This document shows positions 14,636 to 26,965 of a stretch of DNA of 64,000 nt, piece by piece (the stretch's first letter is position 1; every line of letters begins with the position of its first letter). The notes below the pieces were generated by a model that had not been told where the DNA came from, made no database searches, and saw nothing but the letters and a program-made list of their open reading frames with translations. This DNA comes from Candidatus Cottocaccamicrobium excrementipullorum. Lineage in GTDB: Bacteria > Bacillota > Clostridia > Lachnospirales > Lachnospiraceae. The stretch lies in the NCBI GenBank assembly GCA_018713255.1, contig DVFL01000002.1, positions 124,001 through 188,000 of the forward strand, given 5' to 3'. The position numbers and the translations under genes were made by a program.

Positions 14636-15256
14636 TTATCCCAAAAACTCTCCTAAAAAATCCAGACTTCCTTCAGGCATGTCCATAGCCTTAATCTGCA
14701 TGTCAGAAAATACCTTTAAAATCCGCCCAATGGTTTCCTGATTTACCGGCGCCACCGTATTATCTAACGTTACCGTAAGAACCGTGAGAATGATTCTGGC
14801 CGTTTCTTCCGGGCAGGAGCAATTAAGAGTCCCCTCCTTCATTCCCTGGCGTATAATATCCCCTAGAATCGGTTCCATCTTTGTAATCAGAATCTGATAG
14901 AATTTTTGATGAATAAAGGCATTCTGCTGCTGAAAGAGAAACGTGCTGCAGGCCTCCTGGCGCTTCAGTTCCAGGGATGAGTTCAAACAAGCCCGATAAA
15001 TAATCTTCAGCTTTTTCAGCGCATCCATGCCCTCTGCCTGGGCCAGTTCCCTCCCCTCATCCAGGATACGGGAATAAGATCTCTCGATTACTCCCTCAAT
15101 CATCTCATTTTTTGAAGCAAAATAATAATAGATACTGCCCTTTCCAATTCCGGCTTTTCTGGCAATATCACTGACCGAAATATTCTCTGCCTCAGAGGTT
15201 TTCATCAGCTCTTGTAAAGCCTCCAGAATTCGTTCTTTTTTCGACTGAATTTCCAT
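14636..15256 (-). CDS. TetR/AcrR family transcriptional regulator
   Basis: A 206-residue repressor-type protein. The N-terminal HTH reads ISVSDIARKAGIGKGSIYYYFASKNEMIEGV (split: ISVSDIARKAGIGKG and SIYYYFASKNEM), the classical TetR recognition helix. The C-terminal helical ligand domain is generic. The start at 15256 (MEIQSKKERIL) follows GAAAGGA by five bases. It is divergent from the condensation-domain/ACP/ligase operon, and the intergenic region holds a perfect palindrome in that operon's leader. This makes it the likely local repressor, responding perhaps to a product or lipid-like ligand of the operon. Confidence 0.93.
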   Translation of the reverse strand: MEIQSKKERILEALQELMKTSEAENISVSDIARKAGIGKGSIYYYFASKNEMIEGVIERSYSRILDEGRELAQAEGMDALKKLKIIYRACLNSSLELKRQEACSTFLFQQQNAFIHQKFYQILITKMEPILGDIIRQGMKEGTLNCSCPEETARIILTVLTVTLDNTVAPVNQETIGRILKVFSDMQIKAMDMPEGSLDFLGEFLG

Positions 15257-15325: not shown

Positions 15326-15354
15326 TTGACTGCCGTTAGAAAAGATGATAAGGT
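15326..15354 (+). promoter_or_regulatory. promoter of the SCP2/condensation/ACP/ligase operon
   Basis: TTGACT (15326-15331), 17-base spacer, TAAGGT (15349-15354). Transcription would begin just before the palindromic operator at 15367. Confidence 0.65.
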
Positions 15355-15366
15355 AACCTTAAAAAG

Positions 15367-15387
15367 GATTCGACCAATGGTCGAATC
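15367..15387. promoter_or_regulatory. probable TetR operator (perfect palindrome)
   Basis: Ten-base arms GATTCGACCA and TGGTCGAATC around a single central A. It lies immediately downstream of the predicted start site of the operon and 19 bases before the first start codon. Size and symmetry are typical of TetR-family operators, and the only nearby regulator is the divergent TetR gene. Confidence 0.75.
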
Positions 15388-15405
15388 CCCTTGGGGAGGC
15401 TGCAT

Positions 15406-15723
15406 ATGACATACGAAGAAATTTTTCAAAAAGTAAAGCAAAAGTTTTCTGGAGCTGACGTAAGCAAGGTGCAGGAGCACCTGGCTTTTCAGTTCAACAT
15501 AACAGGCGAAGGAGAAGGCGCCTTTTATGCCGAAGTGAAAGACGGCGTTCTTTCCATTGAACCTTATGAATATTATGACAGGGATGTGCTCTTTTCCTGC
15601 AGCGCCAAGACACTTCTGGCCATCACAGCAGGAAAGCTGGATCCGATTTTTGCCTTTACCACCGGCCGGCTTAAAATAGAAGGAAACATTGAAAAAGCAT
15701 TATCCTTAAAAAAGTTTCTATAA
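15406..15723 (+). CDS. SCP2 sterol-binding domain protein
   Basis: A 105-residue single-domain protein of the SCP2 fold, a hydrophobic-tunnel lipid carrier. Landmarks are the central FQFNITGEGEGAFYAEVKDG strand-turn and the C-terminal pattern LLAITAGKLDPIFAFTTGRLKIEGN, typical of the family. The start at 15406 is six bases after GGGGAGG. It opens an operon with a hydrolase, condensation domain, carrier protein and ligase, so a role in holding a fatty or sterol-like substrate or product is a reasonable inference. No signal peptide, so it acts in the cytosol. Confidence 0.87.
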   Translation: MTYEEIFQKVKQKFSGADVSKVQEHLAFQFNITGEGEGAFYAEVKDGVLSIEPYEYYDRDVLFSCSAKTLLAITAGKLDPIFAFTTGRLKIEGNIEKALSLKKFL

Positions 15724-15759
15724 AAACTTTCACCAGGCACAGAAAGGGGTGTTCGATTC

Positions 15760-16713
15760 ATGAAACTCACCAAATACCTTCTTGGACTGGCAGCTGCAGG
15801 TGCTGCCGCCGAATATGGACTGGCTTATTATTTCTTTCGCCGTACGATGATCCGCGCAAACGCCAAATCCGAACGCACCATCAATATGGCAGGGACCGAC
15901 TGGAATCAGTATATTCCCAGAATCAGGGCCTGCAAAGAATGGCTGGAGCAGCAGCTTCATGAGGATGTTTACATTACTTCCCGAGATGGATTGAAGCTTC
16001 ACGCCACTTATTTCCCAGGAAATGGCGGAAGGCGAATCGCCCTGTGCTTTCACGGTTATACCAGTGATGGCATGAGTGATTACGCTTCACTGGGAAAATT
16101 TTACCTGGAACAGGGATTCCAGCTTCTTTTAGTGGACGAACGAGCTCACGGAAAAAGCGAAGGCACATACATTGGTTTCGGCTGCCTGGACCGTTATGAC
16201 GCCAAATCCTGGATGGAATATCTGGTAAACCGTTTGGGACAGAACTGTCAAATCCTTCTCCAGGGCATTTCTATGGGGGCTGCAACGGTTTTAATGTCCA
16301 CAGGACTTGATCTGCCCGCTCAAGTAAAGGCCGTTGTCTCCGACTGCGCCTTTACCTCGGCTTACTGCGTTTTTTCCTCAGTATTAAAACGTACTTACCA
16401 TCTCCCGTCCTTCCCTCTGATGAATATCGCAGATCAGATGGCCAAAAAGGAAGCGGGATACGGCTTAAATGAATGCAATGGTGTAAATGAAGTGGCTAAA
16501 TCCCGGATTCCTACCCTGTTCATTCACGGAAGCCGGGACACCTTCGTCCCCTGCTCCATGGTCTACGAACTCTATGATGCCTGCCAGGCGCCCAAAGATC
16601 TGTTAGTGGTACAAGGCGCAAGTCATGCAGAATCTTATTACAAAGACACAGAATCTTATGAAAAAGCTGTGAAAAAATTAATCAGCCAAACTTTCCAGGA
16701 AGGAGAATTTTAA
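15760..16713 (+). CDS. alpha/beta hydrolase with N-terminal membrane anchor
   Basis: A 317-residue serine hydrolase (BAAT/acyl-transferase or S9-like fold). Residues 5-28 form a hydrophobic anchor. The nucleophile elbow is GISMG at about residues 170-174, the acid is the Asp of HGSRDTFVP and the catalytic His lies in GASHAES. Such enzymes cleave or transfer ester, thioester or peptide bonds. It lies two bases before the condensation-domain gene, which indicates tight coupling; it could release or edit the acyl chain on the carrier protein, or modify the finished product at the membrane. Confidence 0.88.
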   Translation: MKLTKYLLGLAAAGAAAEYGLAYYFFRRTMIRANAKSERTINMAGTDWNQYIPRIRACKEWLEQQLHEDVYITSRDGLKLHATYFPGNGGRRIALCFHGYTSDGMSDYASLGKFYLEQGFQLLLVDERAHGKSEGTYIGFGCLDRYDAKSWMEYLVNRLGQNCQILLQGISMGAATVLMSTGLDLPAQVKAVVSDCAFTSAYCVFSSVLKRTYHLPSFPLMNIADQMAKKEAGYGLNECNGVNEVAKSRIPTLFIHGSRDTFVPCSMVYELYDACQAPKDLLVVQGASHAESYYKDTESYEKAVKKLISQTFQEGEF

Positions 16714-16714
16714 T

Positions 16715-18121
16715 ATGAAGACCAGAAAAGGCAACAAGGTATATCCTTTAACTGCTGCCCAGAACCTGCATTATTACTGCCTGAAATACTGTCCGGCAAA
16801 ACAGGTGCTGAACATTGGCTCCAGTCTTACCATTCAGCTGGATCTGAATTGGGACGTGCTGAGAGAATGCATTCAGGAAGCCATTGCCCGCTGCGAAGCC
16901 ATGCGCCTGCGGTTTGCAGAAGACAAGGACGGAACCGTATACCAGTATGTGGTTCGGCAGGATGATTCCGTGATCGAACAATTTGACTTCACCGGATGGA
17001 CCCAGGAAGCCGCAGAAGCAAAAATGCGGGAATGGACAGAGACTCCCTTCGCCCGCTACGATTCCCCCATGCATCATATTGTTATTATTAAAATGCCGGA
17101 CGGCTTCCAGGGAATCTATATTGCCGTAGATCACATGACCATGGACGCCCAGTCTCTCATTCTCTTTTTCCGGGACATTATTGAACTGTACGCCAATCGG
17201 ATGTACGAGGGCATTGATTACCCCAAACCCATGGCATCTTATATAAAGCAATTAAAGAAGGATCTGGAATACGAAGCAGGATCAAAAGCCAGCCAGAGGG
17301 ACCGAGAGTTCTTCCATCAGCTGATTTCCTCTTCCGAACCGATTTTTGCTGATATTTACGGCCCGGGAAAGCTGGAGGCCGAGCGGAAAGCCACAGGAAA
17401 TCCCAATCTCCGGGCTGCCACCAATGCTTCTACTAATGTAGAAGCCAACATTACCACTTTCCACCTGGAAACGGAACCCTCTGCCAGAATGTTCCAGTTC
17501 TGCGAGGATCAGCAGGTTTCCATGACCTGTCTTCTGCTGATGGGCCTGCGCACCTATCTCCAAAAAGAGAATAACCTGGATGATATTTCTGTAACCACAA
17601 CAATCGCCCGGCGCGCCACCCTTCAGGAGAAGCGATGCGGCGGAACCAGAATTCACTGCTTCCCCTTCCGCACCATTGTTCCCCGAGAGGATACCTTTAT
17701 TGAAGGAATCTATAAAATCCGAGATATGCAGAATCAGTATTTCCGTCACGCCAACTTCAGCCCTACCGAATACTACTACTACCGCTCTCAATATTATAAA
17801 CTGGCAGACGGTCAGACTTATGAGCCTTTATCCCTGACTTATCAGCCTCTGTCCATGCGCTATGACGGCCCTGGCTTGGAGAAGCTGGAAGGAATCCAAT
17901 ACCGCACCGCCCGTTATTCCAACGGTGTTGCCGCTCACACCTTATATCTGACAGTCAGCCAGAATGCCTCTGACAATGGTCTGGATTTCTGTTTTGAGTA
18001 TCAGACTGGCGTGGTAACTCCAGAAAAGCTTCAGGAAATCTACTATTATCTGTGCCGGATTATTTTCCGCGGCATTGAAGACTGCAGCCGTACTGTGGGA
18101 GAAGTGATCGACTGGAGTTAA
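16715..18121 (+). CDS. free-standing condensation-domain protein (NRPS C-domain superfamily)
   Basis: A 468-residue single-domain protein of the condensation/acyltransferase superfamily (PF00668 type). The catalytic HHxxxDG motif is present in reduced form as VDHMTMDA (His140, Asp144); the first His is Asp, as in several stand-alone members. The C-terminal half has the latch-like region around SVTTTIARRATLQ. These enzymes join a carrier-bound acyl thioester to an amine or alcohol. It is followed by an ACP and an AMP-dependent ligase, and no multi-domain NRPS is present. So the simplest reading is a one-step amide or ester synthase. GGAG precedes the ATG by nine bases. Confidence 0.87.
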   Translation: MKTRKGNKVYPLTAAQNLHYYCLKYCPAKQVLNIGSSLTIQLDLNWDVLRECIQEAIARCEAMRLRFAEDKDGTVYQYVVRQDDSVIEQFDFTGWTQEAAEAKMREWTETPFARYDSPMHHIVIIKMPDGFQGIYIAVDHMTMDAQSLILFFRDIIELYANRMYEGIDYPKPMASYIKQLKKDLEYEAGSKASQRDREFFHQLISSSEPIFADIYGPGKLEAERKATGNPNLRAATNASTNVEANITTFHLETEPSARMFQFCEDQQVSMTCLLLMGLRTYLQKENNLDDISVTTTIARRATLQEKRCGGTRIHCFPFRTIVPREDTFIEGIYKIRDMQNQYFRHANFSPTEYYYYRSQYYKLADGQTYEPLSLTYQPLSMRYDGPGLEKLEGIQYRTARYSNGVAAHTLYLTVSQNASDNGLDFCFEYQTGVVTPEKLQEIYYYLCRIIFRGIEDCSRTVGEVIDWS

Positions 18122-18189
18122 TCTCGTGCTTTTTGCCGTCAGTCAGGAAAGAAAAACCAAACATTATATTGATCAGGAGGAAATCAATC

Positions 18190-18417
18190 ATGTTAGAAGA
18201 ATTAAAGAAAATCATCTGTGAATATGTGGATGTTAAGCCAGAAAACATTAAGGAAGATTCCCGCTTTATTGAGGATCTGGGGTTTACTTCTTATGATTTT
18301 ATGAGCCTGGTAGGCGAGCTGGAGGACAAGTACGATATTGAAGTAAATGAGCGGGATGTGGTAAATGTAAAAACTGTCGCTCAGGCCATCGAATATATCA
18401 AGTCCCTTCAGGACTAA
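18190..18417 (+). CDS. acyl carrier protein / peptidyl carrier protein
   Basis: A 75-residue acidic four-helix carrier. The phosphopantetheine attachment serine is in LGFTSYDFMSL (Ser at about residue 36), where the usual DSL is TSY. The rest (MLEELKKIICEYVDVKPENI, EDKYDIEVNERDV) matches the carrier fold. AGGAGG precedes the ATG by nine bases; an in-frame extension upstream has no ribosome binding site. It sits between the condensation-domain and ligase genes, 12 bases from the latter, so it is the likely thiol carrier for this pathway rather than the primary fatty-acid ACP. Confidence 0.93.
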   Translation: MLEELKKIICEYVDVKPENIKEDSRFIEDLGFTSYDFMSLVGELEDKYDIEVNERDVVNVKTVAQAIEYIKSLQD

Positions 18418-18429
18418 AAGGAGGATCTC

Positions 18430-19944
18430 ATGGCTGTAGAAACCTTACGGGATGTGATCCGCCACAGCGCTGATGCTTACGGCAGCCAAACCGCATTCCG
18501 TTACAAAACCGGCAGAAAAGAAATTGAAAACAAAACTTATGACGAGGTCAATCGTGATTCTATGGCAGTAAGCCGGATGCTGGACGCAAAGGGGATGATA
18601 GGAAAACACATCGCTCTTTTGGGCACCACTTCCTATCCTTGGATTATCAGCTATTTCGGTATTGTCAACAGCGGCAGCACTGCCGTTCCTATTGATGCCC
18701 AGCTCCCCGCCTCAGCAATCTGCGAGCTGTTAAACCGGGCAGATGTGGAAATGCTGATCTACGATGAAATCCGGGCAGATGTGATTCCTGAAATGAAAAA
18801 ACTGTGCCCGCAAATTACCTGCATCGTTTCGATGCAGGCAGGGGAAGAAAGCGCGGATCATATCCTGTCGCTTACCCAGCTGCTTATGGAACATGAAGGG
18901 AGCTTTGAACAGGAACTGAATCCAGATCAGCTCTGTACCATTCTTTTTACTTCAGGAACCACGGGAAAGAGCAAAGGCGTAATGTTAAGCCACAGAAACC
19001 TGACGGATAATGCAGTGTGTCTGGATATGAAAATTCCTGCAGGAACCGTCTCCATGACTCTCCTTCCCATCAACCATGTGTACTGTCTTACCATGGACAT
19101 TATTAAGGGAATCTATATCGGCATGGTAATCTGCATCAACGATTCCATCATGCATGTGCAGAAAAATCTCAAGCTGTTTAAGCCGGAGATCGTCCTTCTG
19201 GTTCCCATGGTAATCGAATCCATTTACGCAAAGCTCAAAGATGTATCCAAGCTGATCCCCAAAAAGGCGGCGGCCCATGCAGCCTTCGGCGGGAATCTGC
19301 GGATCATCTGCAGCGGCGGCGCCTATCTGGATCCGGAATACGTGGACCGGTTTAAAGAGTACGGCATTACGATCTTGCAGGGCTACGGCATGACTGAATG
19401 CTCTCCTGTAATCAGCAATAACCTGGAATGGGACAACCGCAAAGGCTCTGTAGGAAAACTGCTTCCCAACTGTCAGGCCAAGGTGGTGGATGACGAGATC
19501 TGGGTAAAAGGCTCCAGCGTCATGATGGGATATTACAAAATGCCGGAAGAGACAAAAGAAGCTCTGGAGGACGGATGGCTGAAAACCGGCGATCTGGGCT
19601 ATGTTGACGAGGATAATTTCGTCTACATCACCGGCCGGAAGAAAAATCTGATCATTCTGGCCAACGGAGAAAACGTCTCCCCCGAAGAGCTGGAAAACCA
19701 GTTAAGCCGAAACGATCTGGTAAAGGAAATTCTGGTTCGGGAAAGGGACCGGGTCATTGAAGCAGAGATCTTCCCGGATTACGAATACGCAAAGAAAAAG
19801 CGGATCAAAGATATCCAGGGACAGCTCCAGGCCCTGATCGACGAATTTAATAAGGACATGCCGCCGTATAAGCGGATCCACAGCCTTATTGTCCGGGAGA
19901 CGGAATTTGACAAGACTACCGCGAAGAAAATTAAGCGGTTTTAA
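18430..19944 (+). CDS. AMP-dependent acid ligase / adenylation enzyme
   Basis: A 504-residue ANL-superfamily enzyme that activates a carboxylic acid as acyl-AMP. Core motifs are LFTSGTTGKSKG (173-184), GYGMTECSP (A5), the hinge TGRKKNLIILANGENVSP (A8) and the C-terminal lysine region KTTAKKIKRF (A10). The sequence resembles long-chain acyl-CoA/acyl-ACP synthetases more than amino-acid A-domains, but substrate cannot be read from it. Given the adjacent carrier protein it probably loads an acyl group onto that ACP for the condensation enzyme. Last gene of the operon. Confidence 0.92.
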   Translation: MAVETLRDVIRHSADAYGSQTAFRYKTGRKEIENKTYDEVNRDSMAVSRMLDAKGMIGKHIALLGTTSYPWIISYFGIVNSGSTAVPIDAQLPASAICELLNRADVEMLIYDEIRADVIPEMKKLCPQITCIVSMQAGEESADHILSLTQLLMEHEGSFEQELNPDQLCTILFTSGTTGKSKGVMLSHRNLTDNAVCLDMKIPAGTVSMTLLPINHVYCLTMDIIKGIYIGMVICINDSIMHVQKNLKLFKPEIVLLVPMVIESIYAKLKDVSKLIPKKAAAHAAFGGNLRIICSGGAYLDPEYVDRFKEYGITILQGYGMTECSPVISNNLEWDNRKGSVGKLLPNCQAKVVDDEIWVKGSSVMMGYYKMPEETKEALEDGWLKTGDLGYVDEDNFVYITGRKKNLIILANGENVSPEELENQLSRNDLVKEILVRERDRVIEAEIFPDYEYAKKKRIKDIQGQLQALIDEFNKDMPPYKRIHSLIVRETEFDKTTAKKIKRF

Positions 19945-21055: not shown

Positions 21056-21469
21056 CACAGCAAAGTCCGCTATGCCTGCATATCTCCCCCGCCGCGGGAT
21101 CCGATTCGGATCACTTCATCGGCCAGCGCGATTGTAGACTGCCTGTGGGCAATCATAATCGTTGTCCGTCCCGCACACACCCGGTTCAGGGCCTCATTGA
21201 CCAGGTGCTCTGATTCATTATCCAGAGCGGATGTGGCTTCATCCAGGAGAAGAATCGGCGCATTTTTCAGGATGGCTCTGGCGATGGCGATCCGCTGTCT
21301 CTCTCCGCCGGAAAGGGTATTTCCCCGCTCTCCGAGGATAGTATCATAGCCCTGAGGCAGTTTCCGGATAAATTCATAAGCGTTCGCCGTCTTTGCCGCC
21401 TGGATAATCTCCTCCATGGACGCCTTTCTGCCGCTTCCTGCCAGACCATAAGCAATATTTTCCGCAATC
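21056..21469. repeat. 414-bp direct repeat, copy A
   Basis: Nearly identical, without net gaps, to 23465-23878 (offset 2409). The two copies share exact right-hand ends at CCGCAATC and left-hand ends near CACAGCAAAGTCC. Copy B is the 3' end of an intact ABC exporter gene; copy A is an orphan fragment. Confidence 0.9.
21070..21469 (-). pseudogene. 3' fragment of an ABC exporter gene (duplicate)
   Basis: Encodes only the end of a nucleotide-binding domain: signature [16 protein letters not shown], Walker [13 protein letters not shown] and the H-loop IAHRQST. There is no membrane domain or Walker A. The protein sequence differs from the C-terminus of the intact exporter at 23479-25185 in only a few positions (for example TILGERG for TIPGERG). 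Upstream of the break at 21469 the reading frame continues into unrelated sequence. An internal ATG at 21417 could be translated but a functional product is unlikely. Confidence 0.85.
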
Positions 21470-23335: not shown

Positions 23336-23479
23336 TACAATTGCATGTCTAGTATTCGCTCCCTTATCATAAATCAAGCCTTCATCAGAAATACCAATCC
23401 TTTTGATCGTATTCCCAAGTATCTTTCCAAAATAATCGTCTCCTACCTTCCTACTCATCGGTCTCACAGCAAAGTCCAT
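23300..23479 (-). pseudogene. coding-like fragment of unknown origin
   Basis: On the minus strand, starting from an ATG that overlaps the end of the ABC exporter gene, about 60 codons read like protein (VGDDYFGKILGNTIKRIG, DEGLIYDKGANTRHAIV). The frame then continues into low-quality sequence opposite the possible IS21 scrap and ends at 23099. I do not recognise the family. It is probably a 5' fragment truncated by the same rearrangement. Confidence 0.3.
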
Positions 23480-23878
23480 TATCCCTGTATTTCTCCCCTG
23501 CCGCAGGATCCAATCCGAATCACTTCATCGGCCAGCGCGATTGTAGACTGCCTGTGGGCAATCATAATCGTTGTCCGTCCCGCACACACCCGGTTCAGGG
23601 CTTCATTGACCAGGTGCTCTGATTCATTGTCCAGAGCGGATGTGGCTTCATCCAGGAGAAGAATCGGCGCATTTCTCAGGACGGCTCTGGCGATGGCGAT
23701 CCGCTGTCTCTCTCCGCCGGAAAGGGTATTTCCCCGCTCTCCAGGGATAGTATCATAGCCCTGAGGCAGTTTCCGGATAAATTCATGAGCGTTCGCCGTC
23801 TTTGCCGCCTGGATAATCTCCTCCATGGACGCCTTCCTGCCGCTTCCTGCCAGACCATAAGCAATATTTTCCGCAATC
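23465..23878. repeat. 414-bp direct repeat, copy B
   Basis: The parental copy: it is the 3' end of the intact ABC exporter gene plus about 14 bases beyond its stop codon. Copy A is at 21056-21469. Recombination between the copies would remove the toxin-antitoxin module. Confidence 0.9.
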
Positions 23879-25185
23879 GTCACTTCAAACAGGTATGGTT
23901 CCTGAGGCACGTAAGCGATCATCTCCCGCATTTCCCGAAGGGTACTGTTTCGGCCGCTTTTTCCGCATATTTCGATGTATCCGCAGTCCGGAGGATAAAA
24001 GCCCAGCAGAAGCTTTGCCAGCGTACTTTTTCCGCACCCGGATTCTCCCGTCACGGCCACACACTTTCCTTTGGGGATCTGTAATGTAAAATCAGAAAAA
24101 ATCTTCCGATCCTTCTGATACCCAAAATCAATATGTTCTATCCGCACCGCCTTATCTGCACTGCATAATTCTCCCGCTTCGCTCTCTGCCTGCGCAGCAT
24201 ACTGCCTGGGTTCCTCCGGAAGCTGGAGAAAATCATAAAGATTTTCCACATTTGCCAGACAGTTCATCATCTGTGGAAGATACCTGCCGATATCCAAAAA
24301 CACATACCGAAATGAACCATAAAGCGTGTAAAGTGCCGTCAGTCCCCCAAGGCTGATCCTTCCTGCAGCCACGAACCATACGCCGAGACCGAGGAAAGCC
24401 AGGGCGCCGAAAAGATCCAGAAAACTGTTTAAGCTTTCCAGGCCGGCACTTAATCGATTCGTTCGCTCCTGCCCCTGAAAGCAGTCCTTATTCGCCTTAG
24501 AAAACATCTGCAGAAGCCTTTCCCCCACCGGAAACATCTTCACCGTTTCCATACCCGAAAGCATATTCGTCAGGTACTCCATAAGCTTCCCATTTCCCGC
24601 TGCCTGGACAGCCCCGGAAGCTTTCATGGGCTTTAAAAACAGGCTGTTTCCTGAAAAGGAAATCAAACTGACAATCAGGAGGCATAAAGTAAGGGGAGGG
24701 CTGTAATAAAACATGGGAACCAGATAAACCACCGTAGAAATGACCGCTGCAGACAATCTCCGCAGCCGGGAGCTGTAAATATCCCCCGCCCGCTCCGTAT
24801 CATAAATCAGCTTTGAGATAAAGTCTCCGCTGTGATGCTCCTCATAATAAGCAAAGGGCAGTCTCTGGGCTTTCGAAAATACCAGTTTTTCCAGCCGGGC
24901 AATTCCCCGCCTTCCCTCAATATTGTAGCGGATAATCCCCACCCGCCACACCCACCATCCCAGCACAAAAGCAGCAAACTGCAGTCCCGCCCGGAGAAAA
25001 AGGCCATCTGCATTCCCGGTCTGGGCCGATGTAACCACGCTCTCCACGATCCAGGCATTGGCAATCCTTGCGAAAGCTGCCCCTACAGAAGAAAGGAGAA
25101 TTGCAGCCAGATAAACAGGCAGCCGCTTTTCCATCAGTCCCATAAACCAAAGAAGCAAATGCTTCTTATCCGCCTTATTCTGCAT
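23479..25185 (-). CDS. ABC exporter half-transporter, second subunit
   Basis: A 568-residue type IV ABC half-transporter: six-helix membrane domain (residues about 15-300) fused to a nucleotide-binding domain with Walker A GESGCGKST, signature LSGGERQR, Walker [13 protein letters not shown] and H-loop IAHRQS. All catalytic motifs are intact. Start is ATG at 25185 (MQNKADKK), overlapping the end of the partner gene by 11 bases; an ATG at 25206 is possible. It pairs with the preceding gene as a heterodimer and lies in the operon of the HTH-PurM-like regulator. Exported substrate unknown; small peptides, lipids or drugs are usual for the class. Confidence 0.92.
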   Translation of the reverse strand: MQNKADKKHLLLWFMGLMEKRLPVYLAAILLSSVGAAFARIANAWIVESVVTSAQTGNADGLFLRAGLQFAAFVLGWWVWRVGIIRYNIEGRRGIARLEKLVFSKAQRLPFAYYEEHHSGDFISKLIYDTERAGDIYSSRLRRLSAAVISTVVYLVPMFYYSPPLTLCLLIVSLISFSGNSLFLKPMKASGAVQAAGNGKLMEYLTNMLSGMETVKMFPVGERLLQMFSKANKDCFQGQERTNRLSAGLESLNSFLDLFGALAFLGLGVWFVAAGRISLGGLTALYTLYGSFRYVFLDIGRYLPQMMNCLANVENLYDFLQLPEEPRQYAAQAESEAGELCSADKAVRIEHIDFGYQKDRKIFSDFTLQIPKGKCVAVTGESGCGKSTLAKLLLGFYPPDCGYIEICGKSGRNSTLREMREMIAYVPQEPYLFEVTIAENIAYGLAGSGRKASMEEIIQAAKTANAHEFIRKLPQGYDTIPGERGNTLSGGERQRIAIARAVLRNAPILLLDEATSALDNESEHLVNEALNRVCAGRTTIMIAHRQSTIALADEVIRIGSCGRGEIQG

Positions 25186-26965
25186 TCTCCCCCACTTCCT
25201 TTCCATACAGATTTGCATAAATTCCCTTTTTCTGAAGCAGTTCCTGGTGGGTGCCCATTTCTGCCGCCTCCCCATCCTGCAGCACATAAATCCGGTCAGC
25301 CGCCTTTATCGTGGAAAGGCGGTGAGCGATCACGATAACCGTCTTTCCCTCTGCAATCCGTGAAATCCCTTTCTGAATCTCCTGTTCCGTCTCTGTATCC
25401 ACTGCAGATGTAGGCTCATCCAGCAAAATAATGGGAGCGTTCTTTAAAAACGCCCGAGCCATAGAAATGCGCTGCCTCTCTCCGCCGGAAAGCTTCACGC
25501 CCCGCTCTCCCACCAGCGTATCATATCCTTCCGGCAGACCGGCAATAAACTCATGAATCTGCGCTGCTCTGCATGCCTCTTCTACTTCCTGCCGGGAAGC
25601 CCCTTCTTTTCCGCAGGCCACATTCCAGAAAATGCTCTCAGGAAAAAGGAAAACGTTCTGAGATACGATAGAAAAACAGTCCCTGGCTGCCTGAAGATTC
25701 CAGTCCTCAATCTGTCTGCCATAAAGCAGATATTCCCCTTCGGTCTTCGCATATAACCCGCAGAGAAGCTTAAAAATCGTGCTTTTCCCCTCTCCTGAAC
25801 CTCCCGCAAATGCTGCCGTTTCGCCCTTTCGGATACAGAAAGATACCCCTTTCAGTACGGGATTTCCCGGTTCGTAAGAAAAATTCACCTGTCTCCATGA
25901 AATGACCGTTTCCCTTTCCCCTTTTTCATGTTCATTTCCTGCCTCAGCCGTCTCCTGTTCCCCTGCCGTTTCTCTGCCAAAAGCACCGGCAGACAACCTC
26001 TCTTCTTCTTCCGTCTGCCTGTCAAAGAGCCGTTCCAGACGATCCATAGCCACCTTAGCCGTGCGGATATCGTTGGCACAGAATACGATATCACTTATAG
26101 GGTGGATTACCCGATTTAACAGCACGGTAAACGAAAGCATCTCACCGGCAGTGATTCGTCCTCCAAGCACCTCATAGAGAGCAAACAGATAGCAGATCAC
26201 CACTGGAACCGTGGTAAGAATTCCCTTTAGCAGCCACCCCAAAGAGCTGATCCGGGTGCTTTTGCAGCCGTGGTCAGCAATATCATCAATTATGGTCCCA
26301 ATGCGCCGGCCGGCAGTTTCCTCCAGATTATAACTCCGCAGGACTTCGATTCCCTGGATCACATCGTAAGCAGCCTCCGTCCTGTCATCCATCCTGGTAC
26401 GGAACCCTTTTGCAATGCGGGCAAGTTTTTTAGAAAGCTTGTCTGCCACCACCAGCATCACCGGGTAACTGGCAAAGAGAATGATGATCAGTCTCCCATC
26501 CATTTGAATGAAATATCCCGTAATCATAACCGCCGTTACCAGATTCACCAGAAGGTCCGGAAGAATTTCCGAATAAAATCTGCCCGCCTCCCCTATATCC
26601 GATGAAAACCGGGTCAATATGGCTCCGGAACCATTTTCATCGAAACAGGAGCAAGGAAGCTTCATCAGCCGTTCTCCCGTCTGCTGTCTCACCCTGCGCA
26701 AAACCAGTGCACTGTAATGACCGGCACTTAAGCTTTTCCCAAAAGAAACGGCCGCTCCCCATACAGCCAGGTCAGAAAGTCCTGCCAAGAGCTTTCCCAT
26801 GTCCACCTGCTGTCCGGCAAAAATGCAGTCGGCTGCCTGTGCAACTTCATCATTTCCGGCAATTACGATTCCATTTAGCAAGATGGCCAGTATCACAGAA
26901 ATGCCCAGAAAAGCCCCGTACCGCATGCTTGCCTGCCAGAATAACCCCTGCGCTTTCCTCACCAT
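25175..26965 (-). CDS. ABC exporter half-transporter, first subunit
   Basis: A 596-residue type IV half-transporter. The membrane domain is followed by an unusually acidic linker (about residues 310-345, QTEEEERLSAGAFG...AGNEHEKGERE) and an ATPase domain with Walker [18 protein letters not shown], Walker B IILLDEPTSAVD and IAHRLS. Its ATG overlaps the stop of the regulator gene by seven bases (26959-26965), so the three genes form a translationally coupled operon. Both subunits have complete ATP sites, unlike degenerate heterodimers such as TM287/288. Confidence 0.92.
   Translation of the reverse strand: MVRKAQGLFWQASMRYGAFLGISVILAILLNGIVIAGNDEVAQAADCIFAGQQVDMGKLLAGLSDLAVWGAAVSFGKSLSAGHYSALVLRRVRQQTGERLMKLPCSCFDENGSGAILTRFSSDIGEAGRFYSEILPDLLVNLVTAVMITGYFIQMDGRLIIILFASYPVMLVVADKLSKKLARIAKGFRTRMDDRTEAAYDVIQGIEVLRSYNLEETAGRRIGTIIDDIADHGCKSTRISSLGWLLKGILTTVPVVICYLFALYEVLGGRITAGEMLSFTVLLNRVIHPISDIVFCANDIRTAKVAMDRLERLFDRQTEEEERLSAGAFGRETAGEQETAEAGNEHEKGERETVISWRQVNFSYEPGNPVLKGVSFCIRKGETAAFAGGSGEGKSTIFKLLCGLYAKTEGEYLLYGRQIEDWNLQAARDCFSIVSQNVFLFPESIFWNVACGKEGASRQEVEEACRAAQIHEFIAGLPEGYDTLVGERGVKLSGGERQRISMARAFLKNAPIILLDEPTSAVDTETEQEIQKGISRIAEGKTVIVIAHRLSTIKAADRIYVLQDGEAAEMGTHQELLQKKGIYANLYGKEVGENAE

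Follow-up and report, generated by a model that had tools for sequence, protein, structure and literature searches.

Pathways for fatty acid amides (FAAs) that combine a free-standing ligase, an acyl carrier protein (ACP) and a condensation enzyme (C) have already been described in gut Clostridia, and FAAs from these bacteria act on human G protein-coupled receptors (available portions of PMC13142362, citing Chang 2021). In Coprococcus eutactus the set is OaaA/OaaACP/OaaC, of which OaaC (PDB 12KH) is the FAA condensation enzyme; in vitro, OaaC with ligase and ACP yields FAAs, and oleoyl-CoA gave no product (PMC13142362). FAA enzymes form one clade in the published tree, adjoining the starter condensation domains of lipopeptide nonribosomal peptide synthetases (NRPSs), and 127 of their sequences carry the motif (D/H)HxxxD followed by S (42%), A (36%) or G (17%) (PMC13142362). 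The locus described here lies in a 64,000-nucleotide stretch of a 3.37 Mb Lachnospiraceae genome (G000:C39:124001-188000), referred to below as the window. It is read as a TetR-controlled FAA operon, with a probability of about 0.85, because its C protein falls with the characterized FAA family (OaaC); by its sequence, the operon would probably enable a gut bacterium to link a small amine with a fatty acid, giving signal-like lipids of the kind known from gut bacteria.

An earlier note on this DNA had proposed a compact dissociated pathway for an amide or ester lipid and knew of no described pathway with this gene set. The kinship of C with the FAA family favors the amide half of that proposal. 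The claim of novelty does not hold at the level of the pathway, which is of the kind set out in the available part of PMC13142362, but it may hold for the exact gene set: no description of SCP2, hydrolase and FAA genes together was found in the literature searched, whose coverage did not extend to Chang 2021 (Chang stands in the reference list of PMC12479983, available in part), and the main text of PMC13142362 contains neither the word SCP2 nor the word hydrolase. What is already known is thus the pathway type; not found described are its conserved SCP2-hydrolase-TetR form and the link to the Blautia protein RS03310 (see below).

The condensation enzyme and its operon

The locus comprises the following features, in window coordinates:

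14636..15256, minus strand: TetR-family regulator, divergent from the operon (PF00440 1.6e-13, TetR_C_39 2.2e-11)
15326..15354, plus strand: candidate promoter TTGACT-17-TAAGGT, picked by eye
15366..15388, no strand: operator GGATTCGACCA-a-TGGTCGAATCC, a perfect 11-base inverted repeat with a 1-base spacer
15406..15723, plus strand: SCP2-fold lipid-binding protein, 105 aa (PF02036 1.2e-14; SCP2 structure 1c44 2.2e-7)
15760..16713, plus strand: alpha/beta serine hydrolase with a hydrophobic N-terminal helix, likely a membrane anchor (PF12146 3.4e-13)
16715..18121, plus strand: free-standing condensation enzyme C, FAA type, 468 aa, motif DHMTMDA (PF00668 1.3e-40)
18190..18417, plus strand: ACP, 75 aa, carrier serine in LGFTSYD (PF00550 1.5e-12)
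18430..19944, plus strand: acyl-AMP ligase, motif SGTTGKSKG (PF00501 1.7e-66)

The closest solved structure to C is OaaC (12kh_A, E = 1.4e-97; next entry, 6.3e-7), to which it is 36% identical over 462 aligned columns, and its motif DHMTMDA satisfies the published FAA motif in the alanine variant. The alignment of the two proteins is near-gapless and, as a sequence comparison only, has no gap across the helix at OaaC 214-224 that is treated as an inserted element (PMC13142362). A homodimer that holo-ACP opens counts as a further trait of the OaaC type. A 68-row tree of C proteins, which was midpoint-rooted after the NRPS rows meant as an outgroup had been excluded for too few aligned residues, separates an OaaC branch of 15 rows from a window branch of 52 rows (Shimodaira-Hasegawa-like approximate likelihood ratio test values of 99 and 88, respectively); one protein, L077, is on a long branch outside both, and its placement is unsure. 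When 133 C proteins were split by higher score, 107 were nearer the window protein and 26 nearer OaaC (OaaC included). The motif ends in DA in 106 of the 107 window-side proteins (the exception is L077, with DS) and in DS in 25 of the 26 OaaC-side proteins (the exception is L075, with DA). The window C belongs to a branch separate from OaaC, with an active site of the DA rather than the DS type.

The locus and OaaA/OaaACP/OaaC are alike in their free-standing ligase, ACP and C, in the FAA-type active site and in their occurrence in Clostridia (PMC13142362, available in part); they differ in that the locus has a DA-branch C, an SCP2 gene and a TetR operator common to its relatives, and in the hydrolase, which all 80 relatives analyzed possess but only some OaaC-branch loci have. 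The starter condensation domains found in lipopeptide NRPSs share with C the fatty-acyl donor, but their acceptor is an amino acid held on a carrier in an assembly line, whereas the window C is a stand-alone open reading frame (ORF) of 468 aa, not a multidomain protein. The ten neighboring proteins scanned include a single carrier, and neither an acceptor carrier nor a thioesterase was seen beside C.

All six gene products exceed their Pfam cut-offs and all six frames are open; with the perfect inverted repeat and the divergent TetR gene, this bears out the earlier description of five co-directional genes behind a TetR operator, and the motifs VDHMTMDA, LGFTSYD and SGTTGKSKG that it cited are all present in the translations. 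Catalytic residues are intact in C (HxxxD), the hydrolase (Ser171/Asp260/His289), the ligase (SGTTGKSKG) and the ACP (serine in GFTSYD). Three starts were set by reading the sequence: ATG 15256 for TetR (the listed ORF begins at GTG 15289), ATG 15406 for SCP2, preferred over TTG 15391, and ATG 18190 for the ACP, the analyses of which ran from 18184 and so on a protein 2 residues longer than the corrected one. A mobile element was considered and rejected: the C protein had no match in 72,556 plasmid records (E 1e-30) or 50,697 phage records (1e-20), and no mobile genes occur among the ten neighboring proteins scanned.

Conservation of the gene set and its control region

A scan of genome contigs gave at least 559 relatives, of which the best 80 were analyzed, a sample that favors the window branch; the family was also sampled as 299 whole genomes. 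The two sets have assemblies in common and are not pooled. The order TetR, SCP2, hydrolase, C, ACP, ligase is found in 48 of the 80 best relatives (42 of them free of further matches, the other 6 having an additional or split match); of the 28 window-branch loci taken from other whole genomes, 22 show it as well, so the gene arrangement is more than chance. Neither an unconserved order nor a different known function, the two outcomes that the earlier note had set against its own proposal, was found. The numbers of loci in which each gene is present among the best 80 are 80 for the hydrolase, 80 for C, 79 for the ACP, 76 for the ligase, 64 for SCP2 and 57 for TetR, contig ends having cut some; the most widespread other neighbor family (ORFs of ≥80 aa, either strand) occurs at 21 of the 80. 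Pairwise identities of the five operon proteins co-vary across the 59 complete loci (r from 0.72 to 0.92), those with C being highest for the ligase (0.92), followed by the ACP (0.89), the hydrolase (0.89) and SCP2 (0.78). The nearest named C protein among the best 80, from Candidatus Caccovicinus merdipullorum, is 95% identical, and the window branch is found in named gut genera such as Enterocloster, Hungatella, Robinsoniella, Faecalicatena and Blautia.

C is matched in 49 of the 299 family genomes: 29 carry the window branch (the window's own genome included, and G237 with an incomplete locus), 11 have OaaC-branch clusters, G046 has an orphan C only, G047 has a divergent cluster and 7 give weak NRPS matches only. 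The window branch is therefore present in about one-tenth of the genomes sampled (29/299), and this second FAA branch, with its own lipid-handling parts and regulator, points directly to strains and proteins in which new host-active amides could be sought. The incomplete locus in G237 (L037, G237:C7:5000-18000) belongs to a window-branch operon and shows a truncated C match, no ACP match and a ligase match that follows immediately, so this copy may have decayed or been misassembled. The divergent cluster in G047 (L077, G047:C1:13000-28000) has the order C, ligase, ACP, with phosphopantetheinyl transferase-like and ABC exporter-like genes downstream, as named from reading ORF starts.

The operator starts 11 bases past the proposed −10 element TAAGGT. 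Its 17-base core, TTCGAC-N5-GTCGAA, occurs as an exact match at one site in the 3.37 Mb genome (reversed control, 0), and the shorter core TCGAC-N5-GTCGA precedes SCP2 in 38 of 60 relatives examined. Among 70 relatives (10 of the 80 were excluded, their upstream sequence being too short), 43 have both the TetR gene and the palindrome, 11 the TetR gene only, 2 the palindrome only and 14 neither (Fisher p = 1.8e-6, with related loci counted as independent); the operator tends to go with the TetR gene across relatives. Strings similar to the candidate promoter are present in some relatives; a generic promoter scan, which gave 8 sites versus 7.4 in shuffles, did not report TTGACT-17-TAAGGT.

Proposed pathway and identity of the product

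By homology, the ligase would activate a fatty acid with ATP and load it onto the phosphopantetheine arm of the stand-alone ACP; with the acyl-ACP as its donor, C would then transfer the acyl group to a small amine that diffuses freely, and the N-acyl amide would be released without a second carrier or a thioesterase. The hydrolase, anchored by its helix, may free fatty acid from membrane lipid esters or clear stalled or surplus product, while SCP2 may ferry either this fatty acid or the oily amide between the membrane and the soluble enzymes. TetR would occupy the operator just past the promoter and be released on the arrival of a lipid ligand.

A possible source of the amine lies elsewhere in the genome, which has one PF00282 decarboxylase:

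G000:C3:67163-68254 (L214, L227): pyridoxal phosphate (PLP)-dependent decarboxylase, divergent (by reading) from a LysR-like gene

Its NCBIfam matches are all under cut-off. Its best solved match is 4obu (9.3e-130; next, 3.2e-56), which is taken to be Ruminococcus gnavus tryptophan decarboxylase. Lauroyl tryptamine has been reported as an FAA of Eubacterium rectale (PMC11561910, available in part). Because of this resemblance to 4obu and this precedent, a reasonable first candidate for the amine is tryptamine or phenethylamine produced by the cell itself, put forward as a candidate only.

Several points weigh against assignment of the locus to the FAA pathway. The ligase and the ACP both fall below NCBIfam cut-offs (best models, long-chain-fatty-acid--CoA ligase PRK06187 at 1.3e-75 and acyl_carrier TIGR00517 at 4.6e-18, respectively), and the closest solved structures to the ligase are malonyl-CoA synthetase (1.1e-33) and 4-coumarate ligases; because of these scores and relatives the ligase substrate is not named. 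The identity of C to OaaC is 36% and the two are in separate branches, so the choice of amine and acyl group may differ from that of OaaC, and no assayed member of the window branch was found in the literature searched, which did not cover Chang 2021. SCP2 is absent in 13 of the 70 relatives with sufficient upstream sequence and so is not needed everywhere, and the roles of SCP2 and the hydrolase are inferred from fold and position alone.

The separate branch, with A rather than S as the last motif residue, and an acceptor that the sequence evidence does not fix would also suit a related but different product made from the same acyl-ACP donor, either an alcohol ester or an N-acylated amino acid. 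This is considered improbable: alanine ends the motif in 36% of the published FAA set, and the rest of the active site and the genes that accompany C fit an amide pathway.

Accessory genes, RS03310 and a second condensation enzyme

Within the FAA operon reading, the hydrolase and SCP2 are distributed differently. Ser171, Asp260 and His289 of the hydrolase are invariant across 22 aligned sequences. Its model (predicted local distance difference test score 86, helix at 2-30) has the Pyrococcus esterase Pf2001 as nearest fold (template modeling score 0.68); the model describes an esterase-like protein, the fold names no substrate, and the N-terminal helix is, from sequence and model, likely a membrane anchor. 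A second homologue was not found in its own genome at E 0.001. Of the 22 OaaC-branch loci with a ligase (each nearer OaaC or the locus of such a protein, L069 and L038 excepted), 13 have a member of the hydrolase family upstream of C and co-directional with it (E ≤1e-60); L216 has a weak hydrolase match, L073 has one downstream on the opposite strand, and 7 have none, one of which (L076) is limited to about 0.4 kb of sequence upstream. SCP2 occurs in 0 of the 22. Given these counts (13/22 versus 0/22), the hydrolase can be called a recurring partner, and SCP2 a marker of the window branch.

An SCP2-like protein of Blautia hominis HA2291, RS03310, has been reported to be induced by cholesterol, to bind it and to oxidize it with NAD, and its partner is predicted to be RS03300, a condensation protein encoded nearby (PMC13029680, available in part). 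In register, the 12 published RS03310 residue positions agree with 56 operon SCP2s at a mean of 5.5/12 (best, 9/12), with means of ≤1.4 at 18 shifted registers and 2/12 for the one Blautia SCP2 checked that lies outside such an operon. The tags RS03310 and RS03300, in steps of five, would leave room for one gene between them, as in the SCP2-hydrolase-C order here. From the residue register and the word "nearby" in PMC13029680, we take RS03310 to be an orthologue of the operon SCP2 family. The gel size of about 20.6 kDa with tags (PMC13029680) exceeds that expected from a 105-aa SCP2 alone. In the Blautia group, C is matched in 26 of 64 genomes; window SCP2 was compared with 11 of the 64 (mostly large, none with a window-branch C) and gave one match, in G323, outside an FAA operon.

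RS03310 thus has the residue register of the operon SCP2 family and a condensation-domain protein close by, but is published as a cholesterol-binding, NAD-dependent oxidizer, and an FAA setting is unmentioned in the available part of PMC13029680. The operon provides an alternative reading of this protein. In a speculative extension, which we hold to be rather unlikely as a whole, the membrane hydrolase and SCP2 of this sister FAA branch would together make up an intake line devoted to lipids, cholesterol or other lipids from the host or the diet would induce the operon through TetR, and the true role of the B. hominis SCP2 would be to handle lipids for an FAA operon; if true, this would tie gut cholesterol to bacterial amide signals.

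The same observations, a cholesterol-induced and cholesterol-binding RS03310 with RS03300 nearby and a residue register that fits the operon SCP2 family, could instead point to a sterol or bile-acid pathway, in which SCP2 would bind cholesterol or a sterol acid, the ligase would activate the sterol acid and C would conjugate it. This is very improbable, as SCP2 folds bind many lipids, the best NCBIfam model for the ligase is a fatty-acid ligase (below cut-off), C is akin to the fatty-acyl enzyme OaaC, and NAD-dependent oxidation was attributed to a refolded SCP2 in which we see no obvious catalytic site. The Pfam and NCBIfam matches listed for the operon include no sterol-specific enzyme family. 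Cell-envelope or teichoic-acid tailoring, for which a stand-alone ligase and ACP are also the Dlt (DltA/DltC) layout, or a fragment of an ordinary NRPS can be practically dismissed, with no DltB/DltD-type protein among the ten neighboring proteins scanned, no Dlt model listed for the ACP or for the ligase (best 25 of 102 ligase families), a free-standing C of 468 aa and a gene order conserved as a unit.

The window genome also carries an orphan C of 460 aa with the motif DHMLTDS (L035:7167-8549; G000:C39:69166-70548), located upstream of the operon at a distance of about 70 kb, which is 53% identical to OaaC and belongs to the OaaC branch; no ligase, ACP, hydrolase or SCP2 was matched in the 16 kb around it. 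Such loci, with no ligase or ACP match in 1.5 kb flanks, make up 4 of 30 C loci (L228, L238, L239 and L240); two of their genomes (G000 and G149) also carry the full operon and two (G046 and G428) give no second C match. One ligase/ACP pair might serve both C enzymes. Elsewhere in the same genome is an NRPS-like open frame of 1422 aa with condensation and AMP-binding domains (G000:C42:68155-70470; L001, L205). Downstream of the operon, at window positions 21070-21417 and 23479-25287 (minus strand), lie an ABC transporter ATPase gene and, close by, a shorter, near-identical C-terminal piece that looks like a partial duplication.

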